A program made the position numbers and the translations under genes. Of a stretch of DNA of 64,000 nucleotides, positions 30,673 through 33,665 are shown piece by piece. The notes beneath the pieces are model-generated. The model was not told the origin of the DNA, did no database searches, and saw nothing but the letters and a program-made list of their open reading frames with translations. The stretch covers positions 1,128,192 to 1,192,191 of the forward strand of contig NZ_CP061302.1 of NCBI RefSeq assembly GCF_018687675.1. The letters are read 5' to 3'. Within the stretch, counting starts at the first letter, position 1. Each line of letters begins with the position of its first letter. This DNA is from Polynucleobacter sp. MG-Unter2-18. Its GTDB lineage: Bacteria > Pseudomonadota > Gammaproteobacteria > Burkholderiales > Burkholderiaceae.

Positions 30673-30882
30673 CTACTTCCAGCTAAGGTTCAATTTCTTA
30701 TGCGAAGTAGCGCAATCTCTCAAATAAAGATTAATGAGGCTTTGATAAGGAATACCTACCTCTTCTGATACAGATTTAAAGTAGTTCACTGAATCCTCAT
30801 CCAATCTAATGGTTATAGGCTTCTTAAGCATGGAAGCATATGGGTTTTTACGTGCTTTTGAGAAATCATATTCTTTACGCAT
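30673..30882 (-). CDS. BrnA-like antitoxin
   Basis: BrnA is a ribbon-helix-helix antitoxin that neutralises BrnT and represses its own promoter. Start chosen at ATG 30882 (MRKEYDFSKARKNPYASMLKK), with AAAGG 8 bases upstream; GTG-ATG at 30891-30886 is an alternative. The RHH part is KKPITIRLDEDSVNYFKSVSEEVGIPYQSLINLYLRDC. It follows the BrnT toxin gene with a gap of about 10 bases. The C-terminus is short (about 69 residues total), which is within the family range. Confidence 0.88.
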   Translation of the reverse strand: MRKEYDFSKARKNPYASMLKKPITIRLDEDSVNYFKSVSEEVGIPYQSLINLYLRDCATSHKKLNLSWK

Positions 30883-30893
30883 CTTCATCACCT

Positions 30894-31172
30894 TTAATAA
30901 GCTTTTGACTCTTTAGGACTGGCCTTGCGAGCCGAAATAATACGAACAACATTACCCTTACTCCGATAGCAATGGCAAACCAAAATCACTCGAAGAGAAT
31001 GACTTACTCCCAGCAGGATAAATCTGTCTTCATCCTCCGAATGATCGGGATCAGAAATTAACTTGGCACTTTCATCATAAAACACTGATTTAGCCTCTTC
31101 AAAAGAAATGCCGTGTTTTTTCAGATTAGCCGAAGCTTTTCGGGGCTCCCATTCAAATTGCAACGAATTCAT
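30894..31172 (-). CDS. BrnT-like toxin
   Basis: BrnT toxins are RelE-like ribonucleases of type II toxin-antitoxin systems. The family start is FEWEPRKASANLKKHGISFEEAKSVFYDE, then LISDPDHSEDEDRFILLGVSHSLRVILVCHCYR and the closing RIISARKASPKESKAY. The start is placed at ATG 31172 because the in-frame upstream ATG (31187) lies inside a perfect palindrome that is likely the operator. BrnT precedes BrnA as in the family's usual order. Confidence 0.9.
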   Translation of the reverse strand: MNSLQFEWEPRKASANLKKHGISFEEAKSVFYDESAKLISDPDHSEDEDRFILLGVSHSLRVILVCHCYRSKGNVVRIISARKASPKESKAY

Positions 31173-31189
31173 ATGTACATTGTACATAT
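31171..31189. promoter_or_regulatory. palindromic operator at the start of the brnTA pair
   Basis: ATATGTACA-T-TGTACATAT is a perfect 9+1+9 palindrome over the BrnT start codon. An autoregulatory ribbon-helix-helix antitoxin is expected to bind such a site. The sequence is seen directly; the binding is inferred. Confidence 0.65.
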
Positions 31190-31223: not shown

Positions 31224-31252
31224 GAAAAATGCCCCGCATAAGCAGGGCATTG
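31224..31252 (-). terminator. rho-independent terminator downstream of the channel gene
   Basis: On the minus strand, AATGCCC pairs with GGGGCATT across a 9-base loop and is followed by a T-run. It sits about 90 bases after the channel stop codon and separates it from the brnTA promoter. Confidence 0.7.
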
Positions 31253-31341: not shown

Positions 31342-32994
31342 CTAGCCTTTATTCTTCGCCTTTTCTCCACCATGCTCTAAGAGTAATTTCAGCATATTGC
31401 CTTGCAAGGCTGTAACGTTGTCTGGGTTATCAGCAAATTTACTGAGTTCTTGACGATCCGATACGCTAACGATTTGCTGAAGTTTTGAGATCGTAATCTT
31501 TAATTGCTCTGCGGCAAGTTCAGGATGTTTCGATAAAAACTCTAGACTAATTTCTCCCGAAACGCTCTTACCTTTAGGGCCTTTCGCATCATTGTCTGGG
31601 GCATGCTCTAGGCCCATTTCGACCTTGGCCTTTTCAAGTAGGCGCATGAGCTCTCCTTGAGACAAATGTAAACGTTTAGCTTCAGCTTCGATAAGCTCTT
31701 GCTCATCGGCTGAAATCACACCATCTTCTAGCATGTGATAAAGCTCATTCATCATTTTTTCACGTTCAATCCGTAGTTGATCACTCAGTGCAGATGAAAG
31801 AATTGCTGCCGGAATCGCAAAAATACCGATACCCAAGAGCGCTATCACAATCGTAATGGCTCTACCTGCAGGGGTAATGGGCGAGATATCTCCATAACCC
31901 ACACTGGCCAACGTAATCACAGACCAATAAATAGCCTGCGGAATATTTTCAAATTTATCAGGCTGGGCTTCATGCTCAAAAACATAACCCAAGCAGGCAG
32001 CGAGCATCACTAAAAGCAGGAGAATGAAAACAGCCGCCTTCATCACCGGCCACTCACGCTTGATCACGGTGAATAGGGATTGGGTCGCTCCCGAATACCG
32101 CGCTAGCTTGAGTAAACGCATCAATCTGAAGACGCGCAAGAAACGCAGATCAAACAGGTGATGGAGCAGACTCTCTAAATAGAAAGGCAAAATAGCTAAC
32201 AGATCAATAATGCCTGTTGGTGTACTTGCACAGCGCAGACGCCCCCTAAACCAACCTTGGAACTTTGGATCCTCAGGAGCACTATAGATCCGCATAAAAT
32301 ATTCTGTGGAGAAAATCACCACCGCAATAGTGTCAAGAATAATGAATTCAGAATGCAGGTGGTAATAAATACTTTGGACTGACTCAAGAATGACAGCGAG
32401 CACTGACACAATCACCCAAGTCACAATAAACATATCAAAGATCTGATGCAGATTGCCGCTCGTAGGCGTTTCATTCACTAAGGCATAAATTTTGTAACGA
32501 AAAGATTTATCTTTATTTTTTTCTAAGAATTCATTTACCGCTGGCGCTAAGGCGCGAAATAGTTTTAATAGGCGCAGTAAACGCAGAGCTCTTAAAGCAC
32601 GCAAGTCAGCATCTAAGAAAGCGCCTAAATAAAACGGCAAGATCGCTAATAAGTCAATGATGGCAAAAGGGCTCTTAAAGTAAGCAAAACGCGGATGTTT
32701 AGCAGAACTAAAAGTGGGATCTTCCGGCGCCACATAAAAACGCAAGGCGTACTCAATAGAAAAGATGGCCAGTGAGACCACATCAAAAATATGAAAGAGC
32801 TGTTCGCGGGTTTCATAAATGACCGGAATATTCTCAAGCACTAAACCCACCATATTGAGCAAAATCATGTAGGTAATGAAGCGCTCAAACTGATTGCAAT
32901 AATTATGCTTAATCTGATGATTAAAAAATAGATCGAATATCGACTTACGAATCTGCAAGTTCAAGCGACCTAAAGAAATTGACTGGAGATTCAT
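31342..32994 (-). CDS. ion channel with two tandem voltage-sensor domains and one pore
   Basis: The 550-residue protein has two similar S1-S4-type modules followed by one pore. Module 1 (about 35-150) and module 2 (about 185-300) share EYALRFYVAPEDP / EYFMRIYSAPEDP, an identical IIDLLAILPFYL at residues 112-123 and 262-273, and an Arg-rich S4 (LRALRALRLLRLLKLFR and LRFLRVFRLMRLLKLAR). The selectivity filter TLASVGYGD (361-369) is that of K+ channels and is followed by an S6 helix (IFAIPAAILSSAL). The C-terminal 130 residues are cytoplasmic and helical. The start overlaps a membrane protein gene by 4 bases. Potassium selectivity is inferred from SVGYG; gating is unknown. Confidence 0.85.
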   Translation of the reverse strand: MNLQSISLGRLNLQIRKSIFDLFFNHQIKHNYCNQFERFITYMILLNMVGLVLENIPVIYETREQLFHIFDVVSLAIFSIEYALRFYVAPEDPTFSSAKHPRFAYFKSPFAIIDLLAILPFYLGAFLDADLRALRALRLLRLLKLFRALAPAVNEFLEKNKDKSFRYKIYALVNETPTSGNLHQIFDMFIVTWVIVSVLAVILESVQSIYYHLHSEFIILDTIAVVIFSTEYFMRIYSAPEDPKFQGWFRGRLRCASTPTGIIDLLAILPFYLESLLHHLFDLRFLRVFRLMRLLKLARYSGATQSLFTVIKREWPVMKAAVFILLLLVMLAACLGYVFEHEAQPDKFENIPQAIYWSVITLASVGYGDISPITPAGRAITIVIALLGIGIFAIPAAILSSALSDQLRIEREKMMNELYHMLEDGVISADEQELIEAEAKRLHLSQGELMRLLEKAKVEMGLEHAPDNDAKGPKGKSVSGEISLEFLSKHPELAAEQLKITISKLQQIVSVSDRQELSKFADNPDNVTALQGNMLKLLLEHGGEKAKNKG

Positions 32995-33665
32995 AATTTA
33001 AACTCTCCAATTTTGACTAGGTAGTAACCGGTATCGCAAACACTTAAACGAATATTTAAACCGCTGATCAGCTTTTCACCAGGCTCTAGTGGGGAGATCC
33101 CGGGAGGTCCGGCAGGATTGATAGTCATTTTTTCAAAGATAAAAGATCCGCTCGTCAGCAGATCTTTTCTATTGCATTTCATGCTGTAAACCAGGCCATC
33201 TGATTTTAAAAGATTGGTGTAGCTCTCAAAGGGGCCTTTGGCTGCAAAGAGTGCCTCAACGCAATCTTTCCAGTGATTTACTTTGGCACCTTTAATAAAT
33301 TTACTATCTTCATCATTGGGCCTACATGCTGCGGGTTGAATCGGTTCATTCGCCTCAAGCTTGCCAGCTAATTCACTAAACCACGTAATGATTGCTTCAC
33401 CCCTATCTTGGGTTGCCGCAACCTTATCGGCGTTTTGATAATTGCCATATCCGAGATAGGTCAGTAAGATTACGTTGGCAATGGCGACTACGATAAAGAA
33501 GAAGTCCGAGACGCTCATCTCTCGAAATAGACTTTGGATATTCTTGCCCAATACGCTCTCCCAGCTTTTCTTGATTAAAGCGACTATCTTGCCGCTTTTA
33601 ATTCCTGTATATTTGGTTTTGAATTCAACAAGACTCCACCAACACAGCCACACGGGGATTATCAA
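32991..33665 (-). CDS. uncharacterised membrane protein coupled to the channel gene
   Basis: No family recognised. A membrane helix at about residues 53-73 (FFFIVVAIANVILLTYLGYG) is followed by a ~150-residue polar domain with cysteines (PAACRPNDED, HWKDCVEAL, YSMKCNRK, LSVCDTGYY) that may be extracytoplasmic. The longest frame uses a TTG at 33665 with an extra hydrophobic start (IIPVWLCWWSLV); an ATG at 33518 (MSVSDFFFIV) directly before the helix is an attractive shorter start. The stop overlaps the channel ATG by 4 bases, suggesting the two proteins work together. Confidence 0.6.
   Translation of the reverse strand: MIIPVWLCWWSLVEFKTKYTGIKSGKIVALIKKSWESVLGKNIQSLFREMSVSDFFFIVVAIANVILLTYLGYGNYQNADKVAATQDRGEAIITWFSELAGKLEANEPIQPAACRPNDEDSKFIKGAKVNHWKDCVEALFAAKGPFESYTNLLKSDGLVYSMKCNRKDLLTSGSFIFEKMTINPAGPPGISPLEPGEKLISGLNIRLSVCDTGYYLVKIGEFKL

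Follow-up and report, generated by a model that had tools for sequence, protein, structure and literature searches.

A predicted potassium channel with two voltage sensors and a single pore in Polynucleobacter and related bacteria

The channel gene and its locus

The window analysed here is a stretch of 64,000 nucleotides from Polynucleobacter sp. MG-Unter2-18 (contig NZ_CP061302.1). On its reverse strand, at positions 31342..32994, lies a single, uninterrupted open reading frame of 550 amino acids without stops, identified by ORF scan, Pfam and full-length relatives as a potassium channel gene with two voltage sensors, and the only frame with an Ion_trans match in the 2.0-Mb, one-contig genome. 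Pfam assigned Ion_trans to two stretches of the protein and the pore family Ion_trans_2 to one (E 4.2e-18). Read from the N-terminus, and with all features on the reverse strand, the predicted protein consists of voltage sensor 1 (S1-S4, residues 33-148; 32551..32898), placed by Pfam, module alignment, conservation and comparison with solved sensors; an inter-sensor linker delimited by conservation (residues 149-182; 32449..32550); voltage sensor 2 (S1-S4, residues 183-300; 32095..32448), placed by Pfam, solved relatives and conservation; the S4-S5 linker, S5, pore and S6 (residues 301-404; 31783..32094), recognised by Pfam and with KCNQ2 and KCNQ5 as the best solved relatives; and a cytosolic C-terminal region (residues 405-550; 31345..31782) with a mean pairwise identity of 0.324 among 85 sequences. 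A Pfam search with residues 399-550 gave no match.

The first-pass annotation had described two S1-S4 modules, each with an arginine-rich S4 helix, and a pore behind the second module only, and this description is borne out by Pfam, by the alignment of the modules and by the relatives. Both S4 helices carry six charges with a basic residue at every third position (R132, R135, R138, R141, K144 and R147 in sensor 1, residues 132-147, 32554..32601; R284, R287, R290, R293, K296 and R299 in sensor 2, residues 284-299, 32098..32145), and both sensors have the S2/S3 charge-transfer site. The single selectivity filter, SVGYGD (residues 364-369; 31888..31905), follows the potassium pattern [T/S]xGYGD and lies between S5 and S6. 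We regard the sensor-sensor-pore order as virtually certain from the sequence. That it might be an artefact of assembly, a frameshift fusion or a chance repeat is scarcely conceivable, as the frame is open throughout, the layout recurs in many separate assemblies and nothing was found in favour of such an origin.

Directly upstream lies a partner gene (32991..33551, reverse strand; likely start TTG at 33551, open frame to 33665) encoding an N-terminal membrane span and a four-cysteine domain. Its TGA overlaps the channel ATG by 4 nucleotides, and the sequence GGAGAG stands ahead of the start. This four-cysteine, single-span gene overlapping the channel start was not mentioned in the first-pass annotation and is new here. 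A terminator-like hairpin lies 3' of the channel gene (31228..31251, reverse strand), recognised by consensus match only in a region with 5 such hairpins found and 2.7 expected. Further downstream there is a small two-gene unit (30673-31187, reverse strand), one gene of which has a weak BrnA antitoxin match (19.9 bits against a cut-off of 60); the other, for which NCBIfam gave no match, looks BrnT-like.

The two modules compared

When the modules were aligned with each other, 51 of 112 aligned residues were identical and the score was 228, against 35 +/- 8 and a maximum of 85 in 500 shuffles that kept the hydrophobic pattern. The identical 12-residue stretch IIDLLAILPFYL noted earlier is present at residues 112-123 and 262-273, as are the matching motifs EYALRFYVAPEDP (residues 81-93) and EYFMRIYSAPEDP (residues 231-243). 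The exact 150-residue period between the copies holds for S1-S3 but not for the S4 helices, which are 152 residues apart because the S3-S4 loop is longer by 2 residues. The shared 12-mer is a conserved S3 motif and no family signature; one relative (L005) carries ALIDLVSILPFYL and SIIDFMAVVPFYL. It had also been stated that the copies have diverged at the nucleotide level, and they are indeed 49% identical over the aligned part (164/336); the DNA encoding the two 12-mers differs at 8 of 36 bases, counted by eye and all synonymous, and Tandem Repeats Finder reported no repeat in the DNA.

Module 1 alone (residues 30-165) aligned over S1-S4 to solved sensors of NaChBac, Nav and Kv channels (best match 6vxo, E 4.9e-8), which answers the earlier concern that the first module might lack S1-S4 topology. 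Hv1 proton channels have an aspartate in the middle of S1, and sensor-1 S1 (residues 35-58) contains no aspartate. It is therefore very unlikely that sensor 1 conducts protons or cations on its own in the manner of Hv1, even though isolated S1-S4 modules can conduct, according to PMC12332018.

Likeness to known channels

By the standard plan, as given in PMC10950684 and PMC13095418, each six-helix pore unit has a single sensor (S1-S4) and each channel has four. The present channel is Kv-like by sequence and departs from this plan, with two sensors for one pore. Residues 187-408, comprising sensor 2 and the pore, align with KCNQ2 (E 1.5e-27), and Kv2 and Kv1 chains align too; the S6 of KCNQ2 (FALPAGIL) resembles that of the channel (FAIPAAIL), and the potassium filter is common to both. 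Relative to KCNQ (Kv7) and Kv channels (PF00520 + PF07885), the channel adds an entire extra sensor and a linker ahead of the canonical unit, and for each of the 60 solved sequences listed out of 340, the best-aligned part begins at channel residue 168 or later. Against the NCBIfam equivalog of hyperpolarization-activated potassium channels (NF040645) it scored 69.1 bits, below the curated cut-off of 300.

Single-sensor bacterial relatives of about 320-370 amino acids share sensor 2, the pore and the start of the C-terminal region (profile positions ~155-460) and are without sensor 1; the filter TVGYGD was found in 16 of the single-sensor rows L120-L137. The two-repeat tandem Kv channels of SAR protists, as described in PMC7576140, resemble the channel in having two sensors per chain but consist of two full six-helix repeats with two pore domains, whereas the channel is without the first pore. 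Two-pore channels likewise have two sensors per chain; according to PMC7576140 they are tandems of two six-helix motifs, and the channel has one pore domain and one filter. No account of a sensor-sensor-pore channel came up in searches of an open-access literature library. A phage protein family of unknown function (phrog_7872) matches residues 181-424, that is sensor 2, the pore and the start of the tail (E 1.4e-59), so that phage-encoded relatives of the channel seem to exist.

Distribution of the two-sensor layout

A search of other genomes, proposed in the first-pass annotation, recovered the layout in many related bacteria, and the close homologues are not all single-sensor channels. A genome scan yielded 449 confirmed relatives, and each of the best 80, from Beta- and Gammaproteobacteria, has two S4 runs and a single SVGYGD by ORF scan; since the ranking used a two-sensor query, this count does not give the two-sensor share among all 449. 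In protein searches, rows of 500-550 residues made up most of the best 120 of 4985 and of the best 120 of 4548. The relatives include Polynucleobacter, Limnohabitans, Ramlibacter, Rhodoferax, Rubrivivax, Oxalobacteraceae, Comamonadaceae and Steroidobacteraceae, among others; some are metagenome bins, whose species labels may be wrong. The named proteins among the nearest matches are from Polynucleobacter (P0010, P0013, P0039, P0045; P. bastaniensis L047).

The distribution is patchy. A two-sensor channel was found in 18 of 121 genomes of the genus, one of which (G045) has an internal stop, in 6 of 299 genomes of the family, all belonging to the same genus as the window's, in 4 of 399 genomes of the order (at E 1e-100) and in 2 of 398 of the phylum (at E 1e-50). 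Internal stops interrupt the copies L021 (G045; one TAA) and L031 (G003; two TAG and one TAA), which are likely to be decaying or mis-sequenced. One genome of the genus (G010, locus L018) holds a two-sensor channel of gammaproteobacterial type without the partner, for which our guess is horizontal transfer. In two proteins of 705 amino acids (P0065, checked by Pfam, and P0071) the two-sensor channel is fused to a C-terminal GGDEF domain (diguanylate cyclase), and a third (P0076) is truncated inside that domain, as judged by eye. Such fusions are rare, the two complete ones being all that was found among the best 120 rows.

Conservation of both sensors and of the linker

We collected 334 full-length rows (>470 residues), 323 of them distinct, of which 85 were left below 85% identity. 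Two S4 runs precede the filter in 333 of the 334, the exception being P0138, in which the search pattern picks up a single S4 run. As the genomes are related, the counts that follow are not independent events. The S1 Glu, S2 Phe/Glu and S3 Asp of both modules are present in all 85 non-redundant sequences, and the six S4 charges of each sensor are kept in 82-85 of them. In sensor 1, E54, F78, E81, R85, D114, R138 and R141 are found in 85/85 and R135, K144 and R147 in 84/85; the first S4 arginine, R132, is the weakest position (82/85, varying in three). In sensor 2, E204, F228, E231, D264, R287, R290, R293, K296 and R299 are found in 85/85 and R284 in 84/85. The filter SVGYGD is likewise present in 85/85, partly by construction because it was the selection rule for the locus rows.

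Mean pairwise identity over these sequences was 0.521 for sensor 1, 0.528 for the linker, 0.512 for sensor 2 and 0.665 for the pore. The dN/dS ratio was 0.05-0.11 for sensor 1 in seven comparisons and 0.04-0.085 for sensor 2 in the six that yielded a value, being higher in sensor 1 in five of the six comparisons with both values. Both sensors are thus under purifying selection, and both look functional. The architecture, age and constraint of the two-sensor channel are solid at the level of sequence.

Linker residues P151, F156, N160 and R166 were found in 85/85 sequences, the spacing between the two S4 helices is 149-153 residues in all 85, and the distance from sensor-2 S4 to the filter is 80 residues in 84/85. 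The invariant linker residues and the fixed S4 spacing favour mechanical coupling of the two sensors over a loose tether, as far as conservation can indicate. A linker as conserved as the sensors also speaks against the idea that sensor 1 senses voltage but reports elsewhere than to the pore, either to the partner, the gene of which overlaps that of the channel, or to a cytosolic tail, for example the GGDEF domain carried by P0065 and P0071; given the rarity of that fusion, we hold this reading to be improbable.

Channel genes beside the two-sensor gene in relatives

In Limnohabitans (L065:2114-2974) and in a Comamonadaceae bin (L081:2126-2941) a channel gene takes the place of the partner and overlaps the two-sensor gene by 4 nucleotides. 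This gene is a bacterial sodium channel gene with the filter LESWAD; among solved structures the L065 protein is closest to bacterial sodium channel chains (5hvx with E 3.5e-70, and 6p6w, a NavAb fusion, with E 5.7e-67), and the C-terminal part of the same sodium channel is found at the contig edge in L070. By their sequences, these three arrangements could possibly represent a sodium-potassium channel operon. Further channel genes follow the two-sensor gene in relatives of Comamonadaceae type (L083:4656-6511, L089, L108, L112 and others). A single-sensor channel with the filter TSGYGN, TAGYGN or similar follows at 17 of the 80 loci, and a third channel with the filter SGWGN or similar was found by pattern at 11 of 80, some loci being cut off. 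The proteins with these odd filters may possibly be heteromeric subunits. Their link to the two-sensor gene is loose, because an order-wide search for odd filters found a genome (G1029, 87% complete) that has a pair of adjacent odd-filter genes but no match to a two-sensor channel.

Gain, loss and source of the first sensor

In a tree of sensor 2 and pore (66 rows) the two-sensor sequences formed one group with a support of 94, inside which a single-sensor Polynucleobacter channel was nested. In a bootstrapped tree of 37 rows the whole group received 100/99, its betaproteobacterial part including the nested channel 100/98, and the two-sensor members of that part 94/85; the branch parting the nested channel from the betaproteobacterial two-sensor sequences had a support of 80 with 66 rows and 94/85 with 37. 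This sister type (L024) has 389-398 amino acids and is without sensor 1. The tree is most simply read as a single gain of sensor 1 and a single loss. Two gains have an equal cost, and the single loss is preferred because the N-terminus of the nested channel, as judged by eye, keeps AVxxFxxxNxGRTxRQKVY, the stretch that follows sensor-1 S4. For the same reason, and for its nested position, the sister is disfavoured as the ancestral state. No convincing remnant of sensor 1 was found in the 672-901 nucleotides upstream of seven sister copies, where three matches of 7-9 residues were at chance level. The sister co-occurs with a two-sensor gene in five of the six genus genomes that have it (p 2e-4, kinship ignored).

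The first-pass annotation had proposed an old and retained duplication. The two-sensor layout is indeed old and kept; duplication as its origin is not upheld. The sensor-1 sequences form one clade (support 92 with 34 rows; 99/99 with 14), and their mean identity is 0.377 to the sensors of single-sensor relatives and 0.349 to sensor 2. The window's own pair of sensors is the most similar of 34 pairs (0.415; mean 0.344). Sensor 1 was nearer the single-sensor relatives in 34 of 34 cases, a count biased by setting the best of many against one. A first sensor tree (97 rows) grouped sensors 1 and 2 with a support of 83, but this grouping was gone from a careful tree of 42 rows, for which a one-clade tree had an AU p of 0.44 and so was compatible with the data without being demanded by them. 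Internal duplication was therefore rejected as a proven origin, and fusion with a neighbouring channel gene is a possible alternative to it.

A further possible origin is a tandem channel with two pores, the first of which was lost. Sensor 1 is as similar to the sensors of other channels as it is to sensor 2, and more channel genes adjoin the two-sensor gene in some relatives, both of which would fit. To take sensor 1 as a functionless leftover of such a channel is another matter, and highly improbable in view of its dN/dS of 0.05-0.11, the near-equal conservation of both sensors and the invariant linker residues.

Occurrence of the partner gene

The partner homologues, 23 of which were aligned, share the N-terminal hydrophobic span and four invariant cysteines, and the cysteine domain is expected to lie in the periplasm. 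Seventeen of the 121 genus genomes have the partner, all with a copy adjoining a two-sensor channel (hypergeometric p 8e-20, kinship ignored); in G012 there is, in addition, a weak match resembling the partner at a distance from the channel (E 5.9e-6). The sole two-sensor genome of the genus without it is G010, with the gammaproteobacterial type of channel. A homologue lies directly upstream in 70 of 89 two-sensor rows with an upstream ORF (65 of 84 distinct channels), and in the best 80 of the 449 genome-scan loci it was directly upstream in 52, with three more found by six-frame search. It was found beside none of nine gammaproteobacterial-type loci (L038-L046), nor beside the sodium-channel group (L051, L065, L081), nor at eleven further genome-scan loci with enough upstream DNA. 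The layout thus does not need the partner, as the latter is absent beside gammaproteobacterial and some betaproteobacterial forms. None of 50 single-sensor rows had it upstream; 25 of these, being placed after a two-sensor gene, do not make a fair comparison, which leaves 0 of 25.

No NCBIfam entry matched the partner; Pfam gave single weak matches, none convincing (best E 0.0022, in one of 23 members), and the one PDB match had an E of 0.41, with no known auxiliary family of the KCNE, DPP or LRRC26 type among them. In animals, subunits that bind potassium channel voltage sensors through a membrane helix are known, and KCNE, DPP6 and LRRC26 are described in PMC10950684 as having one such helix, as the partner does, and as binding the sensors. 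By this analogy an auxiliary role for the partner is plausible; the searches of Pfam, PDB and NCBIfam found no sequence relation to the three, and its putative binding is suggested by gene order. Gene order and co-occurrence together tilt the balance slightly towards the partner being a physical subunit of the channel.

The partner also bears on the suggestion of the first-pass annotation that one set of sensors could be structural. In such a reading sensor 1 would be a fixed platform, on which the channel assembles or the partner docks, and would not move under voltage. Sensor 1 is not directly joined to a pore, and the partner tightly tracks the betaproteobacterial two-sensor channel; no copy of it precedes the sisters without sensor 1 at L024, L026 and L028-L030, as far as the search showed (L025 and L027 had no upstream ORF in range), and G079, a genome with the sister only, is not among the 17 partner genomes. 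A pure scaffold, however, needs neither the S4 charges nor the S2 Phe/Glu and S3 Asp that sensor 1 keeps in 82-85 of 85 sequences, like the pore-coupled sensor, and the gammaproteobacterial form has two sensors without an adjoining partner. The near-invariant gating charges make a structural role less likely, and we give it a minor share of the probability, as a rival to be kept in mind.

Proposed mechanism and implications

We propose that the gene encodes a subunit of a voltage-gated potassium channel of sensor-sensor-pore layout, and consider this together with the mechanism below, taken as a whole, to be reasonably probable. Four subunits would come together around a single pore, with eight sensors encircling it. 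Sensor 2 would drive the pore through the S4-S5 linker in the manner of KCNQ channels, and sensor 1, which probably moves with voltage as well, may set the voltage range or the steepness of sensor 2. Its coupling to gating is less assured than its movement and only narrowly favoured; the route would run through the linker from sensor-1 S4 to sensor-2 S1, together with a side contact. The pore can apparently do without sensor 1, since the lineage of L024 type appears to have lost it. In the betaproteobacterial form the partner would act as an auxiliary subunit docking on the sensor assembly from the membrane and the periplasm. The likely role would be potassium efflux that resets the membrane potential after depolarisation.

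A bolder proposal, which we put forward tentatively and with some doubt, is that all eight sensors work, that the outer sensor, regulated from the periplasm by the four-cysteine subunit, tunes the inner one, and that the channel is the core of a bacterial electrical-signalling unit. The last part of this proposal comes from the relatives in which the gene is accompanied by channel genes with odd filters or shares an overlap with a sodium channel gene. These neighbouring-gene contexts suggest a part in the control of membrane potential, although they are not conserved in the window's genome.

With two intact sensors per pore unit, cooperation between sensors and their coupling to the pore would become directly testable, and the sensor-1-less sister would offer a natural control for the function of sensor 1. 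The GGDEF fusions might point to a tie between membrane voltage and c-di-GMP, and the partner is a candidate family of accessory subunits of bacterial channels.
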